Below the pieces are notes generated by a model. The model saw only the letters and a program-made list of their open reading frames with translations. It was not told the origin of the DNA and did no database searches. The translations under genes and the position numbers were made by a program. DNA of 64,000 bases from Aggregatilinea lenta (GTDB lineage Bacteria > Chloroflexota > Anaerolineae > Aggregatilineales > Aggregatilineaceae): assembly GCF_003569045.1 (NCBI RefSeq), contig NZ_BFCB01000002.1:1779506-1843505 (forward strand). The letters are read 5' to 3'. This document shows positions 16,750-57,880 of the stretch, in pieces. Every line of letters begins with the position of its first letter. Position 1 is the first letter of the stretch.

Positions 16750-16793
16750 GTACGGGAAAATCGCCTTTGTAGGGGCGGTGACCTTGCCCCGTT

Positions 16794-17669
16794 TCAACGG
16801 ACGGGAAAAGTGTCGTAGAAACGACGTTCAAAAAGGGCGGGGCTGGTGTAGTCCAGCGACGAATGCAGCCGCTGGCGGTTATACCAGACCTCGATGTACT
16901 CGAAAATCGCCTGCCGCGCCAGGGCATGGGTCGCAAACGGGCCGGCAGCGCACTCGGTCTTCAAGGTGCCGATGAAGCTTTCCATCGGCGCATTGTCGTA
17001 GCAGCAGCCCGCGCCACTCATGCTGACCTGGATGTGATGGTCAGCCAGCAGGGTCTGGACGAGATGACTGGTGTACTGGCTGCCCCGGTCAGAGTGATGC
17101 AGCAGGGACGTCAGCGGCAGCCGCCAGCCCAACGCCATGCGCAGGGCTTGCTCGACCAACGTCGCACGCAGATGGGGTGCCATGGCCCAGCCCACAACCC
17201 TGCGACTGAACAGGTCCATCACCAGGGCGAGATACAGCCAGCCCTCGTATGTATCGAGGTAGGTGATGTCGCCCAGCCAGATCTCGTCCGGCTGGCTGGC
17301 CGTGAAGTGCTGGGCCAGCCGGTTCGGCGCAACCGGTGCGTCGACCTCGCGCTGCGTGGTGTGGGGCGGCCTGCGACGCGACCCTTTTCCGACAAGATCG
17401 TGCTGCTGCATCAGGCGCGCGACGCGCTTCCGGCTCACGCACAGCCCTTGCTGCTTCAACGCGGCGTGAATCCGCGGGCTGCCATACGTCTGGCGGCTCG
17501 TTTCATACGCGCGCTCAATCGCGCCCAGCAGACCGTCGTTCGCTTGCTGGCGTTGACTGCGTGGGCGCTTGCGCCAGTCGTAGTAGCCGCTCGGCGATAC
17601 CTTCAGCACCTGGCACATCCGCCGCACCGGGTACTCGCCACAGTGCGCGGCGATGAAGGCATACTTCAC
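16794..17669 (-). CDS. IS3-family transposase OrfB (DDE integrase domain)
   Basis: The 291-residue protein has an N-terminal HTH_21 region (YGSPRIHAALKQQGL) and an rve integrase core with the DDE triad: Asp in DEIWLGDITYL, Asp in LLHHSDRGSQYTS and Glu in NAPMESFIGTLKTE. It catalyses strand transfer of the element, normally as an OrfAB fusion. It starts at a GTG that overlaps the OrfA stop (GTGA) and lies in the -1 frame relative to OrfA. The C-terminal YNRQRLHSSLDYTSPALFE motif is typical. It is full length with no internal stop. Confidence 0.97.
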   Translation of the reverse strand: MKYAFIAAHCGEYPVRRMCQVLKVSPSGYYDWRKRPRSQRQQANDGLLGAIERAYETSRQTYGSPRIHAALKQQGLCVSRKRVARLMQQHDLVGKGSRRRPPHTTQREVDAPVAPNRLAQHFTASQPDEIWLGDITYLDTYEGWLYLALVMDLFSRRVVGWAMAPHLRATLVEQALRMALGWRLPLTSLLHHSDRGSQYTSHLVQTLLADHHIQVSMSGAGCCYDNAPMESFIGTLKTECAAGPFATHALARQAIFEYIEVWYNRQRLHSSLDYTSPALFERRFYDTFPVR

Positions 17670-17968
17670 CGCTCCAGCTTGCTGAAGATGCTCACCGCTT
17701 TTTTTAGGATGTCTCGTTCTTGCTCGGCGATGGCCAGCGCTCGCCGCAATCGTCGCACTTCCTGCTGTGATGCGGCCAGATCACTCGGCGCCAACTCGCT
17801 CTGGCCTGCTTGCCGTGTCACCTGATACCGGTCTCGCCACTTCAGCAGCAGTCCCTTGGTGATCCCTAGCTCGCGTTCCACTTGCGACGCACTCTTGCCG
17901 CTGCTTTCCCACAGCTCCAGTGCATCCCGCTTGAACTCCTTCGTGTAGGTTCGATATTGCCTGTCCAT
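17666..17968 (-). CDS. IS3-family transposase OrfA (HTH protein)
   Basis: The 100-residue protein has an HTH_Tnp_1 fold (YTKEFKRDALELWESSGKSA, LGITKGLLLKWRDRY) and a C-terminal leucine-zipper-like segment (EVRRLRRALAIAEQERDILK). It binds the terminal repeats. Near its end the codons CTA AAA AAA GCG contain A7 (17699-17705 as T on the plus strand), a classic -1 slippery heptamer that would join OrfA to OrfB. Confidence 0.96.
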   Translation of the reverse strand: MDRQYRTYTKEFKRDALELWESSGKSASQVERELGITKGLLLKWRDRYQVTRQAGQSELAPSDLAASQQEVRRLRRALAIAEQERDILKKAVSIFSKLER

Positions 17969-18034
17969 GCGCCTCTCCTGATTTCTCCAGTCTACGACAT
18001 TTCCACTGTCCGAGAAATCGGGGGAAGGTCACGG

Positions 18035-18205
18035 GGCTTGCTCCGCCCGGTTGCGCAGAGCACCTCACCCCCGGCCCCTCTCCAATCGGATTGGAGAGGG
18101 GAGACAAACAGCGCCCAACGAGGTTTTGTAGGGGCGTATGGCCATATACCCCGCCGCATCCAATCCCGAACACCCGCAGGGGCGATTCACGAATCGCCCC
18201 GCGCA
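18035..18205. repeat. Composite palindromic repeat (A and B hairpins) beside the IS
   Basis: It contains the remaining half of the hairpin split by the IS and an A-type hairpin (18075-18101: CCCCTCTCCAATC, one base, then its perfect complement). B-type hairpins follow at 18128-18152 (GTAGGGGCGTAT core) and 18179-18200 (GGGGCGATTC, AC, GAATCGCCCC). Flanks read CCTCACCCCCGG before A, as in other copies. Confidence 0.85.
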
Positions 18206-23910: not shown

Positions 23911-23917
23911 AAGGCAG

Positions 23918-24178
23918 TTGTTAGTCGATAGTTTTTGGTTGTCAGTCAGGGGAGTGTAGGGACAATTCATGAACTGCCCCAGCCCCTATGAATCGGTTTT
24001 GGTAGGGGCGTATTGCGATACGTCCCTACAGATCGCGCGTGATCGTATTAGTCCCCTCTCCGATCGTGACCGGAGAAGGGGCCGGGGATGAGGTCTTCCC
24101 GCAGTCGCATCGTACCCCACCCCGCTCCGGCGCACACCTGCTTTTGCTGATCACAGTTCACTGTTTGCTGATCACTCT
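23918..24178. repeat. Composite palindromic repeat cluster (A, B and C modules)
   Basis: This gene-free stretch is filled with repeats: a C module (GTTGTTAGTCGATAG-like), a B-like hairpin with ATTCATGAA core (23959-23980), a B hairpin at 24002-24029 (GTAGGGGCGTAT, TGCG, ATACGTCCCTAC), an A hairpin (24053-24081), and a second C module (24135-24178) with TGCTGATCAC repeated. Confidence 0.8.
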
Positions 24179-24195
24179 ATGAGGAGGCGCGTTTT

Positions 24196-28610: not shown

Positions 28611-28801
28611 ACGCCTGAAGCGGGAACGAGGTGGGGCGTATCGTCTGCGCCTTACCTCACCCCTTAACCCCTGGCCCCTCTCCAATCGGATTGGAGAGGG
28701 GCCAGGGGTGAGGTGCTTTTTTAGCTTTTAGCTGATCCCTGAAACCTGACCACTGACCGCTATTTTTTGGCTTTTGAGCTAACCGCTATTTGCTACTCAC
28801 C
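28611..28801. repeat. Composite palindromic repeat with long A hairpin
   Basis: The A module here forms a perfect 20-bp stem (CCCCTGGCCCCTCTCCAATC at 28668-28687, one unpaired base, complement at 28689-28708), flanked by CCTCACC and GGTGAGG. It is followed by a C module (28725-28795) rich in TTAGCT, CTGACCACTGACC and GCTATTT. It fills the gap before a PfkB gene that has no visible Shine-Dalgarno sequence. Confidence 0.85.
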
Positions 28802-42863: not shown

Positions 42864-43383
42864 TCTCGTGATCCCCCATCCCCTGGCCCCTTGCCCCACA
42901 CAAGTGGAGGGAAGGGGAAAAGCAGGCGGAATGGCGTTGTGTGCAGGGGCGTATAGCTATACGCCCCTGCGGATTGCGCTTGATTTGCTCGTCTCCCCTC
43001 TCCAGCGACGACTGGGGAGGGGCCGGGGTGAGGTCTCTCCGCCGCCCCGATCAAATCGTTATTTTGCGCCCCTCCGCTGCGTCACAACCTCGACAGTCCT
43101 CGTGCTAACAGGCGTTCCTACCGCCTGGAAGCGTGCCAAACGAACCTTGTGCGCCGCGCCGGACGGCGCTACAGTGGAACGTGTAACCCTTTCGCCTTCC
43201 GGCTGATGCTGCTCCGCCAACGCCCCTAATCGCCGCCCAACTCCAACAGTCGTGAACGTGCCGCGCCGCGTCTCTGCTCGGCACCCGGCGTCCTGTGTGG
43301 AGGTGAGATGCACCATCTGGTAAGCGCCGTTAGAGTCCGGCTCATTGGCAGATCCGTTTGATGTAAGGAGAGCACCCGTAGCG
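42864..43383. other. Intergenic region between metal ATPase and YeiH-type operon
   Basis: The first part (42867-43030) is repeat DNA, listed separately. The remaining 43060-43383 contains no clear gene. Inverted repeats AGGCG...CGCCT near 43110 and GCCGCGCC...GGCGC near 43160 could shape a leader RNA. AAGGAG at about 43366 precedes the first gene of the next operon. I do not match it to a known riboswitch. Confidence 0.45.
42867..43030. repeat. Composite palindromic repeat: degenerate A, perfect B palindrome, A
   Basis: The B module at 42943-42970 is a perfect 28-bp palindrome (arm GCAGGGGCGTATAG). It is followed after 24 nt by an A hairpin (42995-43022) with flank GGCCGGGGTGAGGTC. A degenerate A copy lies at 42880-42920 (CCCCTGGCCCCTTGCC, GTGGAGGGAAGGGG). 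Confidence 0.85.
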
Positions 43384-47629: not shown

Positions 47630-47800
47630 CGCTAGCGGTTAGCGGTTAGCCAGGAGCAAATATACGGGGGCAGCTTGCAAGCTGCCCCCGTGTCGCTATA
47701 AGGGGTTCGGATAGCTATACCTGCGAAGAACAGGTCTGCACAGGACCGCGCGCGATCTGCCTGTCTCCCCTCTCCAACCTGGATTGGAGAGGGGCCGGGG
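47630..47800. repeat. Composite palindromic repeat (C, B, A modules)
   Basis: A C module (GCTAGCGGTTAGCGGTTAGCC, 47630-47652) is followed by a perfect 26-bp B-type palindrome (47665-47690, arm CGGGGGCAGCTTG). An A hairpin follows at 47766-47793 (CCCCTCTCCAA...TTGGAGAGGGG) with flank GGCCGGGGGTGAGG. It fills the gap between fasciclin gene and guaA. Confidence 0.85.
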
Positions 47801-47854
47801 GTGAGGTCGCGGTGCGCTGCCGCCGAATACGTTAAATCCGCGAAACGCTCCGCC

Positions 47855-49405
47855 TCACTCCCACTCGATCGTGGCGGGCGGCTTGGTCGAAATGTCGTAC
47901 AGCACGCGGTTGACACCTTTGACCTCGTTCACGATGCGACTGCTGGCGTGCGCCAGCACGTCGTCGGGGATGCGCGCCCAATCCGCCGTCATGAAGTCGG
48001 TGGTGGTCACGGCCCGCAGCGCGATCACCTCGTCGTAGGTGCGGTTGTCGCCCATCACGCCCACACTGCGCACCGGCAGCAGGATCGCGAACGCCTGTCC
48101 GATGCCGTCCATCAGCCCCGCCGCGCGCAGCTCAGTCAGGAAAATATCGTCCGCCGCACGCAGCGTTTCCAGGCGCTCCCAGGTGATCTCGCCCACGCAG
48201 CGCACGCCGAGTCCCGGCCCGGGGAACGGCTGCCGCCACACGATCTCGTCCGGCAGACCCAACAGCGAGCCGACCGCGCGCACCTCGTCCTTGAACAGCT
48301 CGCGCAGCGGCTCCACCAGCTTGCTTTTCAGGTGATCCGGCAGCCCGCCGACGTTGTGGTGCGACTTGATCCGGTCCGCGCCGGGCCGTCCCGTGCCCGC
48401 GCTCTCGATCACGTCGGGATAAATCGTGCCCTGCGCCAGCCAATCGAGCTGGCCCACGCGCGACGCCTCACGCTCGAACACATCCGCGAAGGTCTTGCCG
48501 ATGATCATACGCTTGCGTTCCGGATCTTCCACGCCGCGCAGCGGATCGAGGAACTCCTCAGTAGCATCCACCGCGACGAGATTCCAGCCGAGGTTTTGCG
48601 TCACCTCGACGACCAACTCCGGCTCACCTTTGCGCAGCATACCGTGATTGACGAACACCGCCACGAGCTGATCGCCCACGGCACGGTGAATCAGCGCCCC
48701 GGCTACCGCCGAATCGACGCCGCCGCTCATGCCGAGCAGCACGCGCCCCGCGCCGACCTGCGCGCGGATCGCCTCCACGCTGGCGTCGATGACGTTCTGC
48801 GCCGTCCAACCGGGCTGCGCGCCGCACACCTCGATCACGAAGTTGCGCAGCATCTCCGTGCCGTGCGCGGTGTGCATCACTTCCGGGTGAAACTGCACGC
48901 CATACAGGCCGCGCGCCACGTTGCCCACTGCCGCGAACGGCGCGTTGTCCGACGAGGCCAGCGGCGCGAAGCCCTCGGCGGGGCGCTCCAGGCGGTCGCC
49001 GTGGCTCATCCACACCGTTTGCGCCGCGTCCAGCCCGGCCAGCAGCCCTTCCGCGCAGTCGATCCGGATCTCGGTCTTGCCATACTCGCGGCTGGCGGAC
49101 GGTGCGACCGTGCCACCCAACGCCTGCGTGAGCAGTTGCATGCCGTAGCAGATGCCGAGCACCGGCACGCCCGCGTCCAGCACCCAGCCCGGCAGGCGCG
49201 GCGCGCCGGGATCGTAGACGCTGGCCGCCCCGCCCGACAGGATCACGCCGCGAAAGTCGGGAACCGCCGCCTGCGCCTGCTCCAGTGTCGCGACGTACGG
49301 CAGCAGCGCCGCGTAGACCTGGGCCTCACGCACGCGCCGGGCGATAAGCTGCGTCGTCTGCGAGCCGTAGTCGAGGATAACAATCCCGCCCGACTCAAGC
49401 GCCAT
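47855..49405 (-). CDS. guaA: GMP synthase (glutamine-hydrolysing)
   Basis: The start at 49405 ([20 protein letters not shown]) has GGAGG about 6 nt upstream. The 516-residue protein has a class I glutamine amidotransferase domain (nucleophile in [16 protein letters not shown]; His/Glu in [11 protein letters not shown]) and an ATP-pyrophosphatase domain ([17 protein letters not shown]). The C-terminal dimerisation domain ([15 protein letters not shown]; ends in IEWE) follows. It converts XMP to GMP with ATP and glutamine. Its start overlaps the end of xpt by 11 bp, so the two are translationally coupled: Xpt makes XMP from xanthine and GuaA completes the route to GMP. Confidence 0.97.
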
Positions 49406-51139: not shown

Positions 51140-51335
51140 CGTTGATAGTTGTTAGTCGTTAGTGATTAGTTGTTAGTCAGGCATCAAACGCGTGCGCGCT
51201 TCAGCGCAACACCATTCCCGAAACCTGTTCTTGTAGGGGGCAATTCATGAATTACCCCCTACAAACCCCATCTGGTCGCGTACCCCGGGCGAGGTTTGAA
51301 CTAACAACTAAAAACTATCCACTGATCAATGCTCT
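51140..51335. repeat. Repeat elements inside the nucleoside transporter operon
   Basis: Two C modules (51142-51178 with GTTGTTAGTCGTTAGTGATT; 51298-51332 with CTAACAACTAAAAACTATCC) flank a B hairpin at 51233-51262 (GTAGGGGGCAATTCATG and near-complement, one mismatch). The two C modules are roughly inverted with respect to one another, giving the cluster an element-like outline. Confidence 0.75.
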
Positions 51336-55424: not shown

Positions 55425-55831
55425 GTACGCTCTCCTCGAACTGTGTATCATGGGCACGCCGGGTCTTTTTAACCCCGCTTTAAAACTCAGTGTATTAGAA
55501 ATTGGGCCAAAAGGCTACTACAAAAGACACAAATTAGAGCGGTTTTTACGCAGCATTGAACGAACCGCCGTCTGGATAGGCGGTAGGTAAACACCGGCGA
55601 TTGTCAGTTGCCTGAGGCGGGACTCCGCGTCCGGGCAATTGCTGAATTGTCCCGGCTGCGTGCAGGTTTGGGAGGCGAAATGCAAGGGCGGGTTTGTGCG
55701 GATTAACGACTGTGCCCGGTGGCGGGCAGACCTTACCCCGGCCCTTTGCCAATCAAGCTGGAGAGGGGAGAAAGACGCGATCACGCGCTTCGTAGGGGCG
55801 TATAGCGATACGCCCCTACGTTTTCCGTGCC
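55425..55831. other. Region between adenine deaminase gene and transporter operon
   Basis: The part next to the transporter (55425-55600) is AT-rich and should hold its promoter, with TAATAC near 55490 on the minus strand and an inverted repeat CCGCC...GGCGG near 55563-55585. The part next to the deaminase gene is repeat DNA (55600-55822). No purine riboswitch consensus is seen. Confidence 0.45.
55730..55822. repeat. Composite palindromic repeat (A then B)
   Basis: A degenerate A module (CTTACCCCGGCCCTTTGCCA...GGAGAGGGG) is followed after about 25 nt by a perfect 12-bp-stem B hairpin at 55792-55819 (GTAGGGGCGTAT, AGCG, ATACGCCCCTAC). Confidence 0.85.
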
Positions 55832-57544: not shown

Positions 57545-57880
57545 CAGAACCTCTCCTGTTGACTGGTTCCGGCAATAGGTAATTCCCTTGATTATAGGAC
57601 CAAACTGCGTTTCGACGTTAGCTATTTAGGGGAATGTTAACCTGAGGAGAGGATGCAGCAGGGACAACGACGATCTGTGAGAAAAAGCAAGATTGCGCGC
57701 GATGGGTAGGGACAGTTCAGTACTGCCCCTACGGTGTTCGGGATTGCGGGGGAAAAACCAAGGGCGGGCTGCAAACCCGCCCCTGCAGATGGCCAGAGAC
57801 TGTGCGTGTCTCCCCTCTCCAATCGGATTGGAGAGGGGCCGGGGGTGAGGTTTCTTAGCTACCCACTCCCGGCCATCCCA
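57545..57880. repeat. Intergenic repeat cluster between ABC exporter and ade genes
   Basis: 57545-57700 should hold the ade promoter and shows nothing else. 57706-57732 is a B hairpin with CAGT/ACTG arms, 57762-57783 a B-like hairpin (GGGCGGG...CCCGCCC), and 57812-57838 an A hairpin (CCCCTCTCCAATC, one base, complement) with flank GGCCGGGGGTGAGG. Confidence 0.8.

Follow-up and report, generated by a model that had tools for sequence, protein, structure and literature searches.

In Aggregatilinea lenta, two unrelated intergenic hairpins, here called A and B, form one unit with a fixed order, orientation and spacing. The unit consists of the conserved outer flank of A, the A hairpin, a linker and the B hairpin, and measures roughly 80-95 bp. 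Judged from sequence, A is similar to the intrastrand-triplex motif known as BoxC/PIT/TM in E. coli, and B fits a GTAG-tagged REP, matched by the description of that group rather than by its 24 family consensuses. In the reading that we consider probable, A+B belongs to the REP/BIME type of short, non-autonomous intergenic repeats; whole units would be copied into the 3' ends of genes, and some copies perhaps act as terminators. As far as the searched literature shows, the combination of two known repeat kinds with an exchangeable partner slot is new: no paper joining BoxC, triplex and Chloroflexi was found, and a text search for the literal repeat words gave apparently unrelated papers only.

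BoxC/TM motifs and GTAG REPs have so far been regarded as distinct intergenic repeats, for the most part unexplained, and we know of no function assigned to the BoxC-type motifs since the 1990s. The joined unit with its fixed spacing implies that a BoxC-like motif can be carried along within an element. The same unit stands at hundreds of gene ends in A. lenta (92 units in 2.06 Mb, extrapolated to about 280 per genome) and extends the range of high-copy, E. coli-like triplex motifs to the Chloroflexota.

Architecture and copies of the unit

The window, the whole 64,000-nt stretch of DNA that was analysed, is located in contig 2 of a 6.2-Mb genome. Hairpin A has the layout CCTCACCCCCGG-CCCCTCTCC-loop-GGAGAGGGG, and hairpin B, which lies 3' of A on the same strand, the layout GTAG-GGGCG...CGCCC. 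In the window CCCCTCTCC occurs 12 times and GTAGGGGCG six times, where dinucleotide shuffles expect 0.46 and 0.57, respectively, and Rfam returned two tRNAs only. An A-type hairpin was found at all seven sites for which the first-pass annotation had listed one; these and the associated features are the following.

42943-43033, minus strand: A+B unit that prompted the analysis, comprising outer flank, A hairpin, linker and B hairpin
42995-43022, minus strand: A hairpin, with BoxC-like Y-R arms
43023-43033, minus strand: conserved flank on the outer side of A (minus-strand sequence CCTCACCCCGG); third-strand arm of the putative triplex motif
42971-42994, minus strand: A-B linker, 24 nt
42943-42970, minus strand: B hairpin (GCAGGGGCGTATAGCTATACGCCCCTGC)
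42874-42917, plus strand: third hairpin at the edge (CCCCATCCCC-TGG-CCCCTTGCC..GGGAAGGGG), triplex-type as read from the sequence, outside the A+B unit
18063-18152, plus strand: A+B unit
24002-24093, minus strand: A+B unit, plus an extra B at 23956-23980, both within the 285-nt gap 23911-24195
28655-28713, unstranded: palindromic A flanked on either side by a third-strand arm, without B
47767-47806, minus strand: A downstream of the gene for GMP synthase (47855-49405, minus strand), with a degenerate hairpin in the B slot
55731-55819, plus strand: decayed A and intact B
57760-57850, minus strand: A+B unit, with a further B-like hairpin at 57706-57732

The annotation that most of these sites carry a B about 25 nt away holds for five of the seven (23-26 nt), the exceptions being 28655-28713, which is without B, and 47767-47806 with its degenerate hairpin. 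The repeat that had been assigned to 42867-43030 is present, but that range covers three hairpins (42874-42917, 42943-42970 and 42995-43022) and the unit extends to 43033. What had been described as a B on either side depending on orientation is a single A-then-B order read from two strands.

Relatives of the triplex-type hairpin at 42874-42917 recur in the genome, and lone near-perfect hairpins of B type or similar are present at 51231-51264 and 47664-47691 (TTGTAGGGGGCAATTCATGAATTACCCCCTACAA; ACGGGGGCAGCTTGCAAGCTGCCCCCGT). An IS3-type element at 16779-18031 (rve integrase, inverted ends TGACCTT) interrupts a B hairpin; it has a 3-bp duplication, CGG, and its rejoined flanks read GTAGGGGCGGGGCTTGCTCCGCCC, a typical B. 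A second IS3-type copy, at about 706-707 kb of contig 1, also lies within a GC-rich hairpin.

For the pairing of the hairpins we sampled about 1.26 Mb of the genome including the window, later 2.06 Mb in total; A hairpins were oriented by their outer flank and B was scored as GTAGGGGC with at most one mismatch. In 73 of the 117 flank-oriented A copies, against about 0.9 expected, a same-strand B begins 15-29 nt downstream of A; the opposite strand and other distances give 0-6 per 5-nt bin. The linkers fall into the classes AGAAAACCACGATCC (15 nt) and AGACAAGC...CGGGTTTT (24-27 nt), with a pairwise identity of 50-66% as compared to 26-30% after shuffling, and their last bases are associated with the core type of B (12, 4, 5, 24; p = 2.6e-4; all p-values given are nominal, several tests having been made). 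Moreover, pairs of units that are 90-96% identical over about 80 nt lose their identity within 2-14 nt beyond the unit ends, and column information is at background level just outside A(-1) and B(+30). The fixed spacing and orientation, the conserved linkers and the abrupt loss of identity thus make A+B one unit with sharp ends, copied or inherited whole. This agrees with the earlier proposal of a single mobile or maintained unit; A and B mostly alone and with no preferred spacing, the situation that was to speak for separate repeats, is not what was found, as both spacing and orientation are preferred. Genome-wide, there are 177 exact A hairpins (reversed pattern: 1) and 88 exact A+B units (control: 0).

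The pairing had been called constant. Spacing and orientation are indeed strongly preferred, but the association is one-sided: most A have a B, whereas 48 of the 246 B hairpins in about 1.26 Mb (about 20%) have an A 10-40 nt upstream. Since 139 of the same 246 have another B within 200 nt, B is also an independent and larger family, with A mostly partnered. The additional edge module C of the first-pass annotation (GTTAGC / CTGATCACTG words) proved real but occasional, being present upstream of A in 18 of 149 copies, against 1.4% of random intergenic windows. An element-wide terminal inverted repeat was also considered, as a GATGCGGATTAAC..TCCGGTCA flank seemed mirrored; it was rejected, for these words occur in a minority of copies (15 and 19 of 149) and conservation ends at the unit ends.

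Sequence features of the two hairpins

In 68 aligned units the outer flank of A, CCTCACCCC(C)GG, is conserved as strongly as the stem and has no Watson-Crick partner within the unit. On the other strand, this flank reads as the third arm of a putative class II intrastrand triplex motif, defined as a Y-R hairpin plus a third purine arm with C.G.G, T.A.A or T.A.T triads and at most one mismatch. All nine triads fit in 83 of the 149 host A copies, and allowing up to one mismatch the motif is found in 125 of 149 copies of the host and in 73 of 83 of G006, a genome from a second genus of the host's family. At more than 6 nt, loop 1 exceeds the limit of the published motif finder, and the second loop is CCG in 99 of 149 copies, as in E. 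coli type B. Class II motifs number 167 in 2.06 Mb (162 intergenic) against none in a Markov-3 control, and in seven A copies one position is changed in each of the three arms. A does not match the literal E. coli consensus CCCTCNCCCN3-6GGGNGAGGGN3GGGNGAGGG, as it deviates in one stem base and has additional pairing in its loop; it is therefore filed as TM_ECO-like only, not as TM_ECO.

The helix of B displays two-sided changes in seven of nine pairs of the 68 aligned units. Its structure has a covariation score of 0.234, as compared to 0.150 (sd 0.007) for shuffles, a level that related sequences may exceed without structure, and to 0.03-0.10 with partners slid by 1-3 columns. The GTAG at the 5' foot carries 1.5-1.8 bits per base; its GTA is mostly unpaired, a complement on the 3' side being present in a minority only. 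Within about 1.26 Mb, 234 of the 246 B hairpins are intergenic, and solitary B occurs in a divergent context twice only. B thus shares with the GTAG REPs the unpaired GTAG foot, the short palindrome, the high copy number, the extragenic position and the location mostly 3' of genes; the association with a RAYT gene was not found. Because that link is an association of the group and not a sequence definition, B is filed as REP-like.

Distribution, turnover and mode of spread

The mapping of copies against gene ends that had been proposed as a check placed nearly every unit on the 3' side of one or more genes. In 2.06 Mb, with genes predicted by a simple hexamer caller rather than a standard annotator, the neighbours relative to A->B are antisense-antisense in 66 cases, convergent in 41, sense-sense in 34 and divergent in three, and five units lie inside a predicted gene. 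Divergent gaps are avoided (3/144 units versus 224/978, or 23%, of the background; p = 1e-11), and about 12% of the gene ends have an A. The orientation of the units is clustered along the contigs (52 runs versus 70.3 expected, p = 0.0007), and a link between orientation and the direction of replication is suggested; the flip at dnaA (C1:302706) on contig 1 is weak (p = 0.06), and a change-point scan of contig 2 gave p = 0.07.

A search of the genome and its relatives with a model of the unit, likewise proposed earlier, yielded at least 150 matches in the host at E <= 1e-6, 135 in G006, 34 in G004 and 0-9 in each of 15 further members of the family. The expansion is patchy: within one Chloroflexota family, at least two genera have the unit in high copy number, and it is nearly absent from others. 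G006 has the same A+B unit, with B 20-24 nt after A and 75% identical linkers, many of which end in GGGTTTT-GTAG. The second slot is taken by B in 102 of 158 host and 57 of 83 G006 copies, and by an inverted A in 13 of 83 G006 copies and in 18 of 24 copies of G004 (17-31 nt away); G010 has both B and inverted A, the loci of G004 and G010 having been picked by the unit model and not being random samples. Taken together, A is followed at a similar spacing by B or an inverted A in four genera of the host's family. Some G006 copies (L252-L291) have a third hairpin type, CTTCTCC...CTTTCTCTGCGCAGCGGGGAAAGGGG, after A and the linker.

In the wider phylum, A-like matches were found in 135 of 301 genomes. 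The exact A+B pattern occurs in 16 of 400 genomes, several cases looking like chance neighbours or other arrangements. Among the matches listed, L119 (Omnitrophota) and L172 (Anaerolineae) have an A-like hairpin by GTAGGGGC with the A flank facing B, the opposite arrangement, and L119 has three such copies within 500 nt.

A comparison of orthologous gene pairs of the host and G006 (reciprocal best hits kept as neighbours; median protein identity 52%) shows that whole blocks turn over, by gain or loss. The gap with the unit at 24002-24093, between Indigoidine_A-type and DinB/MST-type genes, measures 285 nt in the host as compared to 19 nt in G006; conversely, a G006 gap with A+B is 207 nt and the host gap 0 nt. 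Moreover, 13 of 20 A-bearing gene ends of G006 are without A in the host. The empty sites that were to be looked for in close strains are thus represented by two gene pairs with the whole block present or absent, but between distant genomes, and at about 52% median identity these sites show the turnover of whole blocks rather than its direction or the exact insertion junction. Gene ends share units across species above chance (7/20 versus 4/43, p = 0.03), an excess that a purely neutral inserter would not require and that counts against the REP/BIME-type reading.

In the REP/BIME-type reading that we favour, A would be the constant head and the second slot would hold either a GTAG-REP hairpin (B) or an inverted A. 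As the second hairpin is exchangeable at a similar spacing, we infer an enzyme that would recognise two hairpins at a set distance, about 15-30 nt apart on one strand, and the unit would be copied into gene 3' ends, where insertion is presumably least harmful. The nearest model is given by the hairpin-binding, single-strand Y1 HUH transposases that act on REPs elsewhere. RAYT (TnpA-REP), a single-strand transposase of the Y1 type that recognises GTAG plus hairpin, is believed to mobilise REPs (PMC8266576). Secondarily, copies on the transcribed strand might act as terminators or 3'-end stabilisers, considering the T tract that often follows B.

What counts against this reading is that the host genome (98% complete) yielded no RAYT in searches with PF01797 and NCBIfam, where REP_Tyr_transpos reached 37.6 bits at a cut-off of 80, and no Y1 match was found in G004 (77% complete). 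The Y1 matches of the host are an IS605 TnpA beside TnpB and a weak match in a large ORF without visible HUH motif, and RAYT was therefore dropped as the host mobiliser; IS605 was rejected as the source, its ends, read by eye, being unlike A or B. The mobiliser would thus have been lost, act in trans or be of another kind. A new type of mobile element, with a triplex-forming head, an exchangeable second hairpin and a non-RAYT machinery that uses the triplex head as recognition signal, is a tentative and rather doubtful extension. If the triplex-head reading were true, the BoxC-type motifs would gain a role as mobile-element ends. The same family with a different partner, together with a host in which no RAYT was found, offers a natural system for finding the mover.

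An RNA-level function, in which a double-hairpin 3' untranslated element serves as terminator or mRNA-end protector and was spread by recombination instead of transposition, seems unlikely to us as the main explanation. It would account for the location 3' of genes, for the sharing of units by orthologous gene ends and for the TTTT after B, which in the host is found in 19 of 26 copies sense to the upstream gene versus 12 of 32 antisense (p = 0.009). It is also in line with RNA folds that are more stable than shuffles in four of the five window copies (z -3.0 to -6.9; the 18 kb copy has z -1.6). Yet there is no sense bias (in tandem contexts, 66 units are antisense and 34 sense), G006 does not show the T-tract difference and A is without a strong U tract. 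Furthermore, A is found at about 12% of the gene ends only, most family members have almost none, and E. coli BoxC/PIT had no terminator activity in earlier work, as relayed by PMC4666352. Reuse of some copies as terminators is possible.

It is less plausible still that A alone is active, as a triplex-forming motif at which replication stalls and to which rearrangements or insertions are drawn, B having been added next to it in a secondary step. The fit of the triads and the excess of class II motifs over the Markov-3 control agree with this scenario, as do the position of both IS3-type copies within such GC-rich hairpins and the proneness to rearrangement of the E. coli TM loci (PMC4666352), but it leaves the conserved linker and the replacement of B by an inverted A in G004 unexplained. 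Finally, independent accumulation of A and B in the same permissive intergenic spaces, suggested by the 198 of 246 B without A and by the avoidance of coding DNA and divergent promoters by both, is refuted as the general case and highly improbable otherwise, given the single strand, side and 15-29 nt spacing, the conserved linkers with their linker-core association, and the same unit in G006, at a spacing of 20-24 nt and with its 75% identical linkers.

Relation to known repeats

Similar repeats from other phyla had been mentioned in the first-pass annotation, and both halves of the unit do resemble described families, that of A having been left unnamed. The other strand of A has the order of BoxC/PIT/TM_ECO of E. 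coli (PMC4666352), that is, a pyrimidine arm, a loop, a purine arm, a 3-nt loop and a second purine arm, the last with T opposite A; the motifs are likewise intergenic, of high copy number and also found in pairs. In contrast to TM_ECO, of which the consensus is listed in 262 proteobacterial genomes (PMC4666352), the core of A is CCCCTCTCC, which has an adenine in place of the innermost C of the E. coli consensus, and the Watson-Crick stem extends into the loop. Moreover, the usual partner here is a GTAG hairpin and the copy number is much higher. Inverted A pairs have their third-strand arms outside, whereas those of the E. coli pairs are mostly inside (PMC4666352, Table 1).

B has the mostly unpaired GTAG foot, the GC-rich hairpin and the intergenic location 3' of genes of the GTAG REPs, a group of 24 families that was reported in Chloroflexi too (PMC3733652). 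The GTAG REPs are mostly found with like REPs, in dimers and clusters, and are linked to RAYT, which was not found in the host genome, whereas B here stands at a fixed spacing from a different repeat.

As a composite hairpin pair with a short linker that is dispersed between genes as one unit, A+B is comparable to the RAYT-linked BIMEs and REPINs, to the extent that these are outlined in PMC2817692 and PMC8049555. Inverted A pairs are found in G004, G006 and G010, not as the A+B unit of the host. Within the same outline, BIMEs and REPINs join like REPs in inverted orientation and are tied to RAYT, of which none was found in the host, whereas A and B are unrelated hairpins in one fixed strand order, with an exchangeable partner in the second slot.
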